64,000 nucleotides of DNA, from contig NZ_CP063353.1 of assembly GCF_014931565.1 (NCBI RefSeq), positions 992,001-1,056,000 on the forward strand, in the 5' to 3' direction. Positions within the stretch are counted from its first letter, which is position 1. Each line of letters starts with the position of its first letter. Source of the DNA: Clostridium sp. 'deep sea'. Its GTDB lineage: Bacteria; Bacillota; UBA994; PWPR01. The notes below the pieces were generated by a model, which was not told the origin of the DNA, searched no databases, and worked only from the letters and a program-made list of their open reading frames with translations. Below are positions 25,371 through 40,085 of the stretch, piece after piece. A program made the translations under genes and the position numbers.

Positions 25371-25571
25371 AAATTCATATACACAAGCAATGATAGAGAA
25401 TAGTAAATAACGTAATGTTGTACAGAGAGTAAGAAAATGCTGAAATTCTTACCAACTAGCCTATTGAACCTACTCTTACGCTATATAACATAACTAAGTG
25501 AGCCTTTAATGGCTAATTAGGGTGGTACCGCGGGTTAACTCTCGTCCCTTGTTGTGGGATGTGAGTTTTTT
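25371..25571 (+). ncRNA. T-box leader with proline specifier, controls proC
   Basis: The conserved T-box AGGGTGGTACCGCG lies at 25519-25532 and is followed by a terminator (AACTC-TCCC / GGGA-GAGTT, then T6) at 25537-25571. Stem I shows the AGTA of the specifier loop near 25400, a GTAAGAA/TTCTTAC distal hairpin, and GAA followed by CCT and A at 25466-25472. CCT (25469-25471) is a proline codon, which matches the downstream pyrroline-5-carboxylate reductase. Uncharged tRNA-Pro should stabilise the antiterminator and switch on proline synthesis. Confidence 0.9.
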
Positions 25572-33152: not shown

Positions 33153-33785
33153 CTATAAAGACTCATCCATGGCCTTATAAATTTGTTGGCTTAACTCACT
33201 TACTTCAGTTTTTAAGTTAGTTAAATCGTTCTCCATTTTAGCAACAAACTCTTCATCTTTTAATGAACCTAAGTTAATTTTTACATTATAAACAGCACCT
33301 CTAAATGCTGCTTCTGCCATTCCTGCACCAACACCAGCATCGCTTAGGGCATTTTTATTGCCTTTTAAGGCAGCTTCTTTACATAACTTTAGGACGTCAA
33401 CACTTATTTTAGCCATTTCAAAGGGTGTAGCAGTTGCTTTTTTAGTGCCCTCTTGAATCGCCTTTCGGCGGACTGATTTTTCCTCTTGTGTTGCTTTGGG
33501 CATTTTAAATGCAGCCATAACTTCATTAAAGGCCTCGGTATCTTCATCAATAAGTTGTAAATAACGGTCTTTTAATAAGTTTGCTTTTTCTCTTAAAACC
33601 TTCATATCTAGCTCTACTTCGGCATACTTCTTTTTGCCTACTGTTAAATTGCCTACCATTGATGCTAATGCTGCACCTAAAGCACCAGCCACTGCAGAGG
33701 CACTTCCACCACCCGGAGCTGGAGATGATGAGGCTAACTCCTCACAAAAACCTTTTACTGTTAAGTTTACTAATTTAGTTGTCAT
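33153..33785 (-). CDS. fchA: Formimidoyltetrahydrofolate cyclodeaminase
   Basis: The 210-residue protein converts 5-formimino-THF to methenyl-THF and ammonia, the last step that salvages the one-carbon unit of histidine. The conserved N-terminal ELASSSPAPGGGSASAVAGALGAAL-type segment, LIDEDTEAF and the helical all-alpha composition match the FTCD cyclodeaminase domain, here a separate protein as in clostridia. The ATG at 33785 (TTKLVNLTV) is preferred over one eight codons upstream, because the AAGGAAGAG site lies before it. It overlaps the end of hutI by 11 bases. Cytoplasmic. Confidence 0.9.
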   Translation of the reverse strand: MTTKLVNLTVKGFCEELASSSPAPGGGSASAVAGALGAALASMVGNLTVGKKKYAEVELDMKVLREKANLLKDRYLQLIDEDTEAFNEVMAAFKMPKATQEEKSVRRKAIQEGTKKATATPFEMAKISVDVLKLCKEAALKGNKNALSDAGVGAGMAEAAFRGAVYNVKINLGSLKDEEFVAKMENDLTNLKTEVSELSQQIYKAMDESL

Positions 33786-35037
33786 AAATAACTCTTCCTT
33801 CCTCTGCAACTTTCACACCTTTTTTATAAACCTGTTTGGCATGATTTTTTCCAAATCTATAGGCTAAATAATCTAAATTATCGGTATCCCATATAATAAA
33901 ATCTGCCTGTTTACCCTTCTCTAAGCTACCCAATTTATCCGCCATATTTATGGCATAAGCAGAGTTTAAAGTACAAGCGTTTAAAATTTCTGCCGGGGTC
34001 ATTCGTAAGTATAAGTATGCTAAGTTAAAAACAAACTGCATATTATCACTAGGACAGCTACCAGGATTAAAATCTGTAGCAACTGCTACGGGAACCCCCT
34101 GTGTTATCATTTTACGAGCAGGAGCATAGTCTTTACGTAAATAAAATGATGTACCTGGCAAAATAACTGCAATTGTTTTACTTTTTGCCATATCTTCTAT
34201 GCCTTTATCCGAAATAGCCATTAAGTGATCAGCCGAGGTTACTTGTAGCTTAGCAGCTAACTCTGCCCCACCAATAGATACAATTTCATCTGCATGCATT
34301 TTTAATTTAAAACCATGCTTTTTAGCGGCTACTAATATTTTTTCACTTTCAGGCACTTCAAATACACCTTTTTCACAGAACACATCACAAAACTGCGCTA
34401 AACCACTTTTAGCAACAGCTGGAATCATATCATTAATAATGTGTTCAATATATGCCTCTCTGTTTGCTTTATACTCTGGTGGCACAGAGTGAGCACCCAT
34501 AAAAGTATGCGCTAAGTCCATAGGATGAATCCGAGCTAATTCGTGCGCTACCTCTAGTTGTTTTAACTCTTCATTAAGAGCTAAACCATAGCCGCTCTTA
34601 CTATCAACTGCTGTAACACCTAAAGATAACATATGGTTAAGGTCTTTTGTTGCCTTGTTAACTAACTGATCTTTGCTTGCTTTACGAGTAGCTTGTACGG
34701 TACTATTTATGCCACCACCAGCTTTGTGGATCTCCATATAGGAGGCACCTTTAAGCTTTAACTCTATTTCGTGCTCGCGTGAACCACCGTGCACTAAATG
34801 AGTATGAGGATCAACAAAACCTGGTGTTAATAAACAGCCTTTGGCATCTATTACTTCTGTAACAGCCGGCAAATTATTTATATCTACATCAATGTCTTCA
34901 ATATAACCATCTTTTATTAATAGGGCAGTATTATTAATAGTCATTACACTGCCTTGCTGTTCACCAGCTAGTGGTACACCTATATCAATAGCAGTAACTA
35001 AATTGGCATTTATTATTGCCTTATATACAAAAGCCAT
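33775..35037 (-). CDS. hutI: Imidazolonepropionase
   Basis: HutI hydrolyses 4-imidazolone-5-propionate to N-formimino-glutamate. The 420-residue metal enzyme has HTH in VDPHTHLVHGGSREHE, the substrate-binding KSGYGL, HADE and the Asp in ATDFNPGS, all typical of HutI. It lies two bases after ftcD and overlaps fchA. It is clearly distinct from the two HutI-related amidohydrolases at 2972-5268, which lack the VHGGSREHE box. Confidence 0.93.
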   Translation of the reverse strand: MAFVYKAIINANLVTAIDIGVPLAGEQQGSVMTINNTALLIKDGYIEDIDVDINNLPAVTEVIDAKGCLLTPGFVDPHTHLVHGGSREHEIELKLKGASYMEIHKAGGGINSTVQATRKASKDQLVNKATKDLNHMLSLGVTAVDSKSGYGLALNEELKQLEVAHELARIHPMDLAHTFMGAHSVPPEYKANREAYIEHIINDMIPAVAKSGLAQFCDVFCEKGVFEVPESEKILVAAKKHGFKLKMHADEIVSIGGAELAAKLQVTSADHLMAISDKGIEDMAKSKTIAVILPGTSFYLRKDYAPARKMITQGVPVAVATDFNPGSCPSDNMQFVFNLAYLYLRMTPAEILNACTLNSAYAINMADKLGSLEKGKQADFIIWDTDNLDYLAYRFGKNHAKQVYKKGVKVAEEGRVIYDN

Positions 35038-35039
35038 AA

Positions 35040-35942
35040 TTAACCCTGTAATCTACGCTCTAAAATTTGATTTTTCTTAGAGAAACCCTCTAGTTGTAGA
35101 TAATATCCAGCACAATCAATTAAAGCGTCCATTGGCACTAAACCAACAATTTCACTGCCAACAACATTAACACCATAACGCTTAGCTTCCATTTTAATCA
35201 TTTCAAAAGAACGATATAGGGCAGTTTTTTTGTAGTTAGTCATGTTCATACTAACCTGAGCAATGTTACGGTCTTCAAGCATTACTCCCATGCCTTTAAC
35301 ATTTTTTAAACCACCATTGCTTTCACGTACTTTTTTGGCTATTTTATTAGCAATTTCAACATCACTAGTATCGAGGTTAACATTAAAAGCAACCAAAGCT
35401 GGACGAGCACCAACTACAGTAGCACCAGCTGTAGGATGTAATTTAGACTCACCAAAATCAGGAGCCCACTCAGGATCATTAATTTTATTTTTAAATCCTT
35501 CGTATTCGCCTTTACGTACTACAGATAAATTTTTTCTTTTATCAGTTTTTGCTGCTCTTTCATATAAATAGATAGGTATGTTTAGCTCTTTAGCAATACG
35601 CTCACCAACCTCATTGGCGATTTCAATGCAGTCTTTTAATTTTACACCCGAGATAGGAATAAATGGAACAACATCTGTGGCACCCATACGTGGATGTCCA
35701 CCCTCGTGTACATTCATATCAATAAGTTCAGCTGCCTTAGCAGTAAGCTTAAAAGCAGCCTCAGCACAGGCCTCAGGAGTACCAATATAGGTTACAACTG
35801 TACGGTTATGGTCGGCATCAGAAGAATAATCTAATAAGATTGCACCAGCAGTTTCTCTTACTTGATCTACAACTTGTTCTATAATTTCGGGTCGACGTCC
35901 CTCACTAAAATTCGGTACGCACTCTACAATTTTTGCTGACAT
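35040..35942 (-). CDS. ftcD: Glutamate formiminotransferase
   Basis: The 300-residue enzyme moves the formimino group from formimino-glutamate to tetrahydrofolate, releasing glutamate. Motifs include ECVPNFSEGR at the N-terminus, DADHNRTVVTYIG and HEGGHPRMGATDVVPFIP, which hold the catalytic His and folate-binding residues. Only the transferase domain is present; the deaminase is encoded by fchA. ATG follows AAGGAGAAC. It is first in the ftcD-hutI-fchA unit, 435 bases downstream of hutU. Confidence 0.93.
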   Translation of the reverse strand: MSAKIVECVPNFSEGRRPEIIEQVVDQVRETAGAILLDYSSDADHNRTVVTYIGTPEACAEAAFKLTAKAAELIDMNVHEGGHPRMGATDVVPFIPISGVKLKDCIEIANEVGERIAKELNIPIYLYERAAKTDKRKNLSVVRKGEYEGFKNKINDPEWAPDFGESKLHPTAGATVVGARPALVAFNVNLDTSDVEIANKIAKKVRESNGGLKNVKGMGVMLEDRNIAQVSMNMTNYKKTALYRSFEMIKMEAKRYGVNVVGSEIVGLVPMDALIDCAGYYLQLEGFSKKNQILERRLQG

Positions 35943-36377: not shown

Positions 36378-38357
36378 TTAGCTCTTCATCATTTTACTCA
36401 TTGTTGCCTTAATTAAATCATCATTGGCAATGTAAGGCAAAGTAATATGATCTGTACCCTTACAAACATTGTTATAATCAGCAGCTGTTTGCATGGCGTT
36501 TTTGTTGCGAGCCCAGCCTCTGCGAGCTACACCACCCATTACATCCCATAACATGGCTGACTTAATTATTTCATCTATTCTTTCACTGCCATCTAGTACT
36601 AAACCAAAACCACCATTAATAGATTTACCAATTCCTACTCCTCCACCATTGTGCAAAGCAATTAAGCTCATACCACGAGCAGCATTACCAGCAAAGCAGT
36701 GAGTAGCCATATCAGCCATAATGTTACTTCCATCTTTTATGTTAGAGGTTTCTCTAAATGGAGAGTCTGTTCCACCAGTATCATGGTGATCTCTACCAAG
36801 CATAATAGCTCCTACTTCACCTTTACGAACCATTTCATTAAATTTAAGAGCAATATTCATTCTGCCATAGGCGTCTTGGTATAAAATACGAGCCTGAGTA
36901 CCAACTACTAATTGATTTTTTTCTGCATCACGTATCCAAGCCCAGTTATCTCTATCTTGGAATCTACGGTTAGGATCAATACAATCCATGGCAGCTTTAT
37001 CTGTTTTAATTAAATCCTCGTGTTTACCACTTAAACATACCCAACGAAATGGTCCATAACCATAGTCAAATAACTCTGGTCCCATTATATCCTCTACATA
37101 TGATGGGAAAATAAATCCTTCTGTTGTATCGTAACCATTTTTAGCTATTTCTTTAATACCAGTATCGTAAACAGCCTTTAAGAATGAATTACCATAGTCA
37201 AAGAAATATGTTCCTTGCTCTACTAAAGACTTAATAACTTGGTAATGGCTTTGTAGAGTATTATCTACTAGTTTTTTAAACTCGGCTTTGTTATTTTCTA
37301 GTAAACTAGTACGCTGCTCAAAGCTAATACCTTGTGGGCAATACCCACCCTCATATACTGCATGGCAAGAGGTTTGGTCGGATAATAAATCTATTTTAAT
37401 GTTATTATCAACCGCATACTTTAGTAAATCTACTACATTACCATAAAAAGCTATCGCAAAAGCCTCACCTTTATTCATCCTTTGTTTGGCTTGTTTAAAT
37501 GCCTCTGCAGGGTTATCGATAATGCATACTGCCCAACCTTGTTCATGACGGGTAACAATACGACTATAGTCTACCTCAGCATCGATAATGCAATCTACCC
37601 AACCTTTATTGCCTTTAAGGTCTTTGTCGGCAGCAATACCTAACTTAGAGCGGCCTGCATTAAGTAAAGTACTATAAGTACCGTGTACAATACCCTGTGG
37701 ACCAATATACATCCAACCACCAGCTGTCATTTGACCATAGTTTGCAACACCAAGTTGCATAGCTCTATGCCAGTCTTCATGGTTATCATACATGCCTATC
37801 ATTAAAGCGTTGGTAATAATAACACGTGGAGCTCCTGCATGTGATTTAAACAATCCTACAGGATGCCCAGAGGCTACTACCAAAGTTTGCTCATTTGTCA
37901 TTAACTCTAAGTATCTCTTAATTAGTTGGTACTGCATCCAGTTTTGGCATACCTGTCCTGTTTCACCATAAGTGACCAGCTCATAAGGGTATAAAGCAAT
38001 ATCAAAATCAAGATTATTGTCTATCATTACTTGAAATGCCTTGGCATCTAGACAATTTCCTTTGTATTCATTAATTGGCTTACCTTTTAAACCACCGTGA
38101 GGACGAAAACGATAGCCATAAATTCTTCCTCGGGTTAATAACTCCTCTAAAAATTCAGGAGCCATTACCTCATGCCACTCTTCTGGCACATAACGAAGAG
38201 CATTACGTAAGGCCAACTCTGTTTCTCTTTCATTAAGGGTAAACTCACGTTTAGGGGCTCTACGTTTGTCTTTTAAAAATTCAGGATACGCTGGTAGCTG
38301 CTTAAAGATACTATCAAGTTTTACTGTCATACTTTCGCTTACAAAATTGTTTAACAT
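36378..38357 (-). CDS. hutU: Urocanate hydratase
   Basis: The 659-residue enzyme adds water to urocanate to give imidazolone propionate, using tightly bound NAD+ as electrophile. Typical segments are NYGQMTAGGWMYIGPQGIVHGT, DQTSCHAVYEGGYCPQG with the active-site Cys, GRDHHDTGGTDSPFRET and GGVGIGKSINGGFGLVLDG. It is about 100 residues longer than the proteobacterial enzyme, which is usual for the form found in Firmicutes and Fusobacteria. The ATG overlaps the hutH stop by one base. Confidence 0.93.
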   Translation of the reverse strand: MLNNFVSESMTVKLDSIFKQLPAYPEFLKDKRRAPKREFTLNERETELALRNALRYVPEEWHEVMAPEFLEELLTRGRIYGYRFRPHGGLKGKPINEYKGNCLDAKAFQVMIDNNLDFDIALYPYELVTYGETGQVCQNWMQYQLIKRYLELMTNEQTLVVASGHPVGLFKSHAGAPRVIITNALMIGMYDNHEDWHRAMQLGVANYGQMTAGGWMYIGPQGIVHGTYSTLLNAGRSKLGIAADKDLKGNKGWVDCIIDAEVDYSRIVTRHEQGWAVCIIDNPAEAFKQAKQRMNKGEAFAIAFYGNVVDLLKYAVDNNIKIDLLSDQTSCHAVYEGGYCPQGISFEQRTSLLENNKAEFKKLVDNTLQSHYQVIKSLVEQGTYFFDYGNSFLKAVYDTGIKEIAKNGYDTTEGFIFPSYVEDIMGPELFDYGYGPFRWVCLSGKHEDLIKTDKAAMDCIDPNRRFQDRDNWAWIRDAEKNQLVVGTQARILYQDAYGRMNIALKFNEMVRKGEVGAIMLGRDHHDTGGTDSPFRETSNIKDGSNIMADMATHCFAGNAARGMSLIALHNGGGVGIGKSINGGFGLVLDGSERIDEIIKSAMLWDVMGGVARRGWARNKNAMQTAADYNNVCKGTDHITLPYIANDDLIKATMSKMMKS

Positions 38358-39865
38358 TATTCTACCTCCCTGTTAAATTTCCACTCACGAATTTCTTTAG
38401 CTAGGTTCTCAAAGTCAACATTCATAACTCTATCTTTAACAATAGGTTCAACAACATCTCTTATAGTTTTATATATAACCTCGGTTCCTTTACCAAGCTG
38501 TACATCGTCATAAAACTCTAGGGCTTGAGCAGCAGAAATTAACTCAATAGCCACTACATAACAAACGTTATGATAAATTTGTCTCGCTTGGCGAGCTGCA
38601 GTTGTGCCCATACTAACGTGATCTTCTTGGTTAGCAGAAGAAGGAATAGAATCTACAGACGCTGGGTGTGCCAGTACTTTGTTTTCACTAACAAGTGAAG
38701 CAGCTGTATACTGGGCAATCATTAAACCTGAGTTTAATCCACCTTGAGCTGTTAAAAATGCTGGTAAACCACCACTTAATTGAGGATTAACTAATCTCTC
38801 AATTCTACGCTCGGAAATATTAGCCAGCTCAGCTAAGGCAATCTTTAAAAAGTCCATAACTATAGCTATTGGTTGGCCATGAAAATTACCAGCAGAAATA
38901 ACTTGATCCTGCTCTGGAAAAATTAATGGATTATCTGTTGCCGCATTTATTTCACGACTGACTACGCTTTTTACATACTGAATGGCATCATAAGAAGCAC
39001 CATGTACCTGAGGTGTGCAACGTAATGAATAGGCATCTTGTACCCTTATTTCACCCTGCTCTGTTACCATCTTACTATTTTTTAGCAAATCTAAAAGCTG
39101 CTTTGCCACAATTAATTGACCTGGCTGTTGACGAACCTCATGTACCTTTTCGTCATAAGCAAAAGGTATTCCTCTTAAAGCTTCAACAGTTAAAGCAGCA
39201 GCACTAGTTGCTGTATTTATTAATTTTTCAGCATCTGCTATTAATAGGGTGCCAATAGCAGTCATAGCTTGAGTACCATTTATTAAAGCTAAACCCTCTT
39301 TAGCATGTAGTGAAATTGGTTTAAAGCCAGCTTTTTTTAAGGCCTCAGCACCGTCTAAAACTTCACCTTGATATTCGGCTTTGCCTAAGCCTAACATTGG
39401 TAATACAATATGAGCTAAAGGTGCTAAATCTCCACTTGCCCCTAAAGAACCCTGCTCTGGTACTTGAGGATGCACACCTGCATTTAATAAATTAACTAAT
39501 AATTCTACTGTACTTAATCTTATACCTGAATTACCCTTAGATAATGCATTGGCTCTTAAAAGCATTATTGCTCTTACAACCTCTGTAGGTAAGGGTTTAC
39601 CAACTGCACAGGCATGACTAGTGATTAAATTATGCTGTAAATCTCCTACTTGATCCTTATTAATTACCACATCACTAAACTTACCAAAGCCAGTGGTAAT
39701 ACCATACATTACCCGCTCTTCCTCTAAATACAAATCTACTAACTTACGCGCTCTGTTAATGCCTTTAATAGCTTCAGCAGTTAACTCTACTTGATAATTA
39801 TTTCTGGCTACATTAACTACGTCGGCAATAGTAAGGTCATTACCATTAATTAATACCTTTCCCAT
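38357..39865 (-). CDS. hutH: Histidine ammonia-lyase
   Basis: HutH removes ammonia from histidine to give urocanate. The Ala-Ser-Gly that forms the MIO cofactor is in GSLGASGDLAPLAH, and ERRIERLVNPQLSGGLPAFL, NQEDHVSMG and YGITTGFG are family landmarks. At 502 residues it has the usual length. The ATG follows AAAGGAGATG. Only 31 bases separate it from a 12-bp terminator hairpin upstream, so the level of transcription reaching hutHU probably depends on that hairpin. Confidence 0.94.
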   Translation of the reverse strand: MGKVLINGNDLTIADVVNVARNNYQVELTAEAIKGINRARKLVDLYLEEERVMYGITTGFGKFSDVVINKDQVGDLQHNLITSHACAVGKPLPTEVVRAIMLLRANALSKGNSGIRLSTVELLVNLLNAGVHPQVPEQGSLGASGDLAPLAHIVLPMLGLGKAEYQGEVLDGAEALKKAGFKPISLHAKEGLALINGTQAMTAIGTLLIADAEKLINTATSAAALTVEALRGIPFAYDEKVHEVRQQPGQLIVAKQLLDLLKNSKMVTEQGEIRVQDAYSLRCTPQVHGASYDAIQYVKSVVSREINAATDNPLIFPEQDQVISAGNFHGQPIAIVMDFLKIALAELANISERRIERLVNPQLSGGLPAFLTAQGGLNSGLMIAQYTAASLVSENKVLAHPASVDSIPSSANQEDHVSMGTTAARQARQIYHNVCYVVAIELISAAQALEFYDDVQLGKGTEVIYKTIRDVVEPIVKDRVMNVDFENLAKEIREWKFNREVE

Positions 39866-39887
39866 CTCTACATCTCCTTTACTCTGC

Positions 39888-39924
39888 TAAAGTATAAAAG
39901 GCAAGGGAATTATCCCTTGCCTTT
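39888..39924 (-). terminator. Terminator or attenuator directly upstream of hutH
   Basis: AAAGGCAAGGGA (39924-39913 in minus orientation) pairs perfectly over 12 bp with TCCCTTGCCTTT, loop TAAT, and is followed by TATACTTT. It could end the transcript of the 40086-41186 lipoprotein gene, but it is 160 bases from that stop and only 31 from hutH. A small reading frame ends in its loop, as expected for an attenuator. Confidence 0.8.
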
Positions 39925-39981
39925 ATTGTTAGCAATTAAAATAACATTATTATGATTATGTTTATGTTTAAACCTTAACAT
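39910..39981 (-). CDS. Candidate His-codon leader peptide of hutHU
   Basis: The 23-codon frame starts at ATG 39981, seven bases after AGGTG. It reads M-L-R-F-K-H-K-H-N-H-N-N and continues with VILIANNKGKG. His codons (all CAT) are at positions 6, 8 and 10. The stop TAA lies exactly in the four-base loop of the terminator hairpin. A ribosome reaching the stop would cover the 5' arm and stop the terminator forming; one paused at the His codons would not. That gives read-through into hutHU when charged tRNA-His is plentiful, which suits a catabolic operon. The mechanism is inference. Confidence 0.5.
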   Translation of the reverse strand: MLRFKHKHNHNNVILIANNKGKG

Positions 39982-40085
39982 ATAATCACACCTAAAATTT
40001 GTTATTAACTTTATTCTATTTTACTTTTTGAAATCCTTTTTTTTGCTTATAAAAATTTATTTATTTAATAAAATTAAATACTGCT

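Follow-up and report, generated by a model that had tools for sequence, protein, structure and literature searches.

The window analysed here, a 64-kb stretch of the genome that we call G000, carries a hut operon and its leader on the minus strand (Table 1). Ahead of hutH lie a short reading frame with histidine codons, a hairpin resembling an intrinsic terminator, and a palindrome of the HisR type.

Table 1. The hut leader and operon, with positions in the window and the basis of each assignment
Feature	Position	Strand	Basis
Shine-Dalgarno AGGTG of the leader frame	39989..39993	-	direct reading; AGGTG also in G001 and G002
Leader frame, MLRFKHKHNHNNVILIANNKGKG and stop	39910..39981	-	direct reading
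Leader His codons, all CAT	39966-39964, 39960-39958, 39954-39952	-	direct reading
Intrinsic-terminator-like hairpin, perfect 12-bp stem, loop TAAT, weak U-tract	39897..39924	-	terminator scan, folding
HisR-type operator (candidate), TACTTTAGCAGAGTAAAGGA (TTTA-N6-TAAA)	39875..39894	-	consensus match, enrichment, HisR co-occurrence
Shine-Dalgarno AAAGGAG of hutH	39874..39880	-	direct reading
hutH, histidine ammonia-lyase	38357..39865	-	PF00221, E = 1e-200
hutU, urocanate hydratase	36378..38357	-	three urocanase domains
Formiminotransferase, FTCD N-terminal type	35040..35942	-	PF07837, PF02971
hutI, imidazolonepropionase (inferred)	33775..35037	-	amidohydrolase family match and gene order

Everything that an earlier note on this DNA described at the level of bases is confirmed. 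The Shine-Dalgarno (SD) sequence AGGTG (39993-39989) is followed after seven bases by an ATG at 39981 and 23 codons, with histidine as codons 6, 8 and 10; the TAA (39912-39910) sits inside the TAAT loop (39912-39909) of the 12-bp stem, and the hairpin ends 31 bases before the hutH ATG (39865). The note missed the palindrome at 39875-39894, a candidate HisR operator that directly follows the hairpin and overlaps the hutH SD. The U-tract of the hairpin is poor (UUUUAUACUUU). A terminator scan over 1.7 kb gave one terminator-like site where 0.4 was expected, and 205 nt of the leader fold better than shuffled sequences (z = -4.1). An Rfam search of the locus found no T-box or other RNA family at the leader, and a scan found no promoter on the minus strand close upstream. 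Next to the start codon of the leader, UGAUUAU has its complement, AUAAUCA, within the run of His codons (39950-39988, minus strand); the hairpin predicted from this pairing is not kept in G001, a genome of the same genus. A second DNA match to the leader within its own genome (33 bases, 84%) was taken as AT-rich chance. Elsewhere in the window (25381-25552, plus strand), a T-box leader (RF00230) lies upstream of a 271-aa frame resembling pyrroline-5-carboxylate reductase (ProC).

Neither HisG nor HisD was found in G000, a single-contig genome of 97.6% completeness, which is therefore a predicted histidine auxotroph, whereas G001 and G002, the latter from the other genus of the family, encode both. 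A HutP gene was found in none of G000, G001, G002 and leader family f3, with Bacillus subtilis detected as a control, and antitermination by HutP was rejected for that reason. Phylum-wide, HutP-family genes occur in many genomes without a hutH match (for example G016, G018 and G027), where they may serve something other than hut.

All 15 genomes of the class have hutH, and the leader family of G000, f1, includes three genomes (G000, G001 and G002). hutH genes from a search in named genomes were distant only and were left out of the leader comparison. The earlier note named relatives as the place to look for conservation of the frame, its His codons and the stop in the loop, and what they offer is divided. 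In G001, whose HutH is 78% identical, a GTG-started frame (MLRSKHNHDNVVYTVNNKGRGISPAFYALVE and stop) keeps two His codons and differs by an in-frame indel of 6 nt. Its stop, however, comes only after the hairpin, at the ribosome site of hutH. In 5000 dinucleotide shuffles, no alignment was as good as that of this leader. G002 keeps AGGTG and ATG; its frame has 15 codons and ends with a TAG in the loop, but shows no His run. Nor does such a run occur in any other hutH leader examined beyond the genus, and the His-codon leader is not a general rule for hutH. No run of three consecutive His codons appeared in the stretches fetched from before the his operons of G001 and G002. The stem is kept with altered sequence in both genomes and the gene upstream of the leader is divergent in both, so the hairpin belongs to hutH and is ruled out as the terminator of that upstream gene. 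This part of the note's case for a catabolic His leader stands. Against it, the G000/G001 leader substitutions fall 3, 5 and 4 times on codon positions 1, 2 and 3, with no coding-type (third-position) bias. As far as comparison of leaders can tell, the His-codon leader appears real in one genus, with a putative role in control. The note's interpretation as a whole finds partial support.

Beyond this genus, SD-led frames of other composition than His pass through the terminator before hutH in f3 (four genomes) and in the distant families f66 and f85; a putatively translated frame entering the hutH terminator is found in four families. In f12 and f54 (L026, L112, L109, L118, L063, L070, L101 and L114), hutH is preceded by a strong long hairpin and then CTTGANNNNGCTAAAGGRGGAAAG, with no leader frame upstream of the stem.

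The translated-terminator geometry is enriched before hutH. Under one rule applied to 107 hutH upstream regions, 26 had a hairpin, and an SD-led frame enters 9 of these 26 against 4 of 108 background leader terminators (P = 5e-5, which is optimistic, the sequences being related and not independent). Chance was gauged on 1.26 Mb of stretches from G000, both strands, where SD-led short ORFs with at least three His in six codons number 13, the hut frame among them. Terminators ahead of a gene are entered by an SD-led ORF in 2 of 55 cases, or 2 of 71 with looser rules, hut being one. The other (L173, 4421-4460) has the frame MTVTVFTKVFCRRITSVSLVIRLFCFHF, and its next gene resembles an amino-acid permease.

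The most widely conserved element before hutH is the putative HisR-type operator, and the wider conserved architecture is a candidate terminator followed by this operator. The published Firmicutes HisR operator consensus is the 20-bp cacTTTAnnnnnnTAAAgtg (TTTA-N6-TAAA; PMC9413887); the hut palindrome matches its core exactly (8/8) and 3 of 6 flanking bases. At 14 of 107 loci the exact core is found within 90 nt of hutH; control stretches gave 1 and shuffling 0.5. When a core of 7 or more is combined with C..G flanks, there are 19 cases before hutH and 0 in controls. The hairpin ends 2-26 nt before the motif in 23 of 28 loci. YerC/HisR is present in all 27 genomes judged motif-bearing, an assignment made partly by eye, against 20 of 36 others; under the exact-core rule the counts are 13/13 and 34/50 (P = 0.013), P values for this co-occurrence being optimistic since the sequences are related. 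Among same-class genomes it is present in 7 of 7 with the motif and 0 of 7 without. The YerC/HisR gene of G000 (G000:C1:2485931) matches PF01371 and TIGR02531. Exact CTTTA-N6-TAAAG sites number 20 in that genome, most of them intragenic, and the hut site is the only one immediately ahead of a recognised histidine gene; hut is predicted to be the plainest HisR target found in G000. No exact TTTA-N6-TAAA core was found upstream of the G000 hisR gene. In G058 (L006, 998-3000, minus strand), a YerC/HisR gene lies between hutH, which it directly follows, and a UvrD/PcrA-like helicase gene.

How the frame might act on the hairpin was modelled by folding. The earlier note held that a ribosome past the His codons opens the hairpin while a stalled one leaves it, and the model agrees: a ribosome anywhere on codons 1-15 leaves the terminator formed at about 0.9, one at codon 18 or beyond abolishes it, and G001 and G002 behave similarly. 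No antiterminator alternative appears with ribosomes placed on the His codons; a classical antiterminator mechanism was accordingly rejected, and the ribosome would act by opening the hairpin directly. What weighs against the proposal is a case in E. coli, where translation lowered the efficiency of a terminator located 30 bp into a frame by only about 10% (PMC4824070). In B. subtilis, moreover, polymerase outruns ribosomes (PMC7858274). Given both observations, a polymerase pause would be needed. If the front edge of RNA polymerase is assumed to lie about 18 nt ahead of the active centre, a polymerase stopped at the operator has its active centre at the hairpin loop in 3 of 3 f1 genomes, which is geometry and not functional evidence.

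We propose a model where HisR targets the hut operon and a layer of terminator and leader lies immediately upstream, two adjoining devices under histidine control, and we consider the chances that it is right to be about even. HisR, its DNA binding stimulated by histidine, would bind the TTTA-N6-TAAA palindrome between hairpin and hutH, and bound HisR would form a roadblock inside the transcribed leader; the active centre of a polymerase halted there would be in the hairpin loop. During translation of the short frame, a ribosome would cover the 5' arm of the terminator and keep the hairpin open. In this genus, a ribosome waiting for His-tRNA would be halted at the His codons, too early for the terminator to be opened, and leader translation would favour read-through when His-tRNA is charged. 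HisR would repress until urocanate, an imidazole-acrylate, displaces histidine. Indole-acrylate displaces the ligand of TrpR, a model for urocanate and HisR, and repression by HisR that urocanate may relieve is the sign we favour.

HisR binding, the direction of the HisR effect and the sensing of His-tRNA are all steps that we infer, and some points tell against them. HisR is known for histidine-activated control of genes for synthesis and uptake, and an additional assumption is required if it is to repress a catabolic operon in response to histidine. As to the sensing of histidine, the His codons occur in one genus only, in a frame without coding-type substitution bias. It is tempting to speculate that HisR with histidine is a programmed roadblock, keeping polymerase in the terminator loop while the leader ribosome closes the gap, such that a DNA-bound regulator would serve as the pause element of an attenuator and histidine and charged His-tRNA would jointly license hut transcription. 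We regard this as improbable, and plain repression by HisR is a simpler reading than a roadblock pause.

Plain HisR repression, with hairpin and short frame lacking a regulatory role, would rest on the most widespread element, which tracks the HisR gene. It leaves unaccounted for the hairpin directly before the operator in most loci (the 23 of 28 above) and the translated frame that enters the hairpin in four families, and we think it quite unlikely as a full account. Conversely, the leader might work alone, with reversed sign: a ribosome past the His codons would melt the terminator and turn hut on, with no DNA-binding regulator. The His codons in both genomes of the genus suit this reading, as do the lack of an antiterminator and a model in which the hairpin stays while a ribosome is at the His codons and opens once it is past codon 17; the predicted histidine auxotrophy of G000 suits the sign. 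It is nonetheless unlikely, as neither G002 nor any other hutH leader examined beyond the genus has the His run, translation in E. coli does little to relieve a terminator early in a frame (PMC4824070), and the conserved palindrome is left unexplained.

The frame could instead report ribosome supply or coupling, as a general attenuator of translation status like that of pyrBI or ampC, with the His codons being incidental AT-rich sequence. Frames without His run through the terminator in f3, f66, f85 and G002, and SD-led frames enter hutH terminators more often than background ones, but His-rich SD-led frames are rare (the 13 in 1.26 Mb), and this one, found again in a sister species, stands before a histidine gene; we hold this explanation doubtful. 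Very little probability attaches to the idea that the palindrome is an RNA hairpin sequestering the hutH ribosome site and not a DNA operator. Its halves CUUUA and UAAAG are able to pair, and in f1 the second of them overlaps the hutH SD. The N6 spacing nevertheless does not vary between families, the TTGA..TAAA of f12 and f54 disrupts the RNA stem, the SD of hutH is at another place in f3, and presence of the motif tracks the HisR gene.

The proposed combination of HisR site and leader shares parts with several known systems. In E. coli, the pyrBI leader responds to UTP by way of polymerase pausing. Its frame overlaps the terminator, as at hut, and there a following ribosome prevents termination, as is proposed here, but no such pause is known at the hut leader; pyrBI is named in PMC4824070. 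The leaders of tnaC and speFL, which act by arrest (PMC8429421, PMC7815308), likewise place a peptide before an amino-acid catabolic operon. Unlike these, the hut leader lacks a conserved arrest motif at its C-terminus, which differs entirely between G000 and G001, and no arrest peptide near the stop codon is conserved among G000, G001 and G002. Candidate ribosome-mediated his attenuators have been described in the Bacillus cereus group and Peptostreptococcaceae (PMC9413887). These and the E. coli his operon share with hut a short leader frame with His codons before a terminator; hut differs in that the operon is catabolic, the His codons alternate and are not consecutive, the frame runs into the terminator, there is no antiterminator, and the predicted sign is reversed. 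The Firmicutes HisR regulon (PMC9413887) resembles hut in the presence of the TrpR-family regulator, the TTTA-N6-TAAA palindrome and a histidine-pathway target, but at hut the target is catabolic and the site is located beyond a terminator, within the transcribed leader. The paper on that HisR (YerC) regulon covers synthesis and uptake genes, with hut only as neighbours of a hisR paralog in Oscillibacter (PMC9413887). The HutP system of the B. subtilis hut operon also has an intrinsic terminator just before hutH, and differs in its HutP gene, which G000, G001, G002 and f3 lack.

To our knowledge, the control of histidine breakdown has been little studied outside Bacillus (HutP) and Proteobacteria (HutC). 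The literature searched contained no His-codon leader for hut, and we know of none proposed before, so that the leader in this one genus would be the first. In a broader context, if hutH is preceded by a terminator and a HisR-type site in several families, a regulon of synthesis and uptake would gain catabolic genes, and a testable puzzle would arise: a histidine-activated DNA binder serving a histidine-degrading operon.
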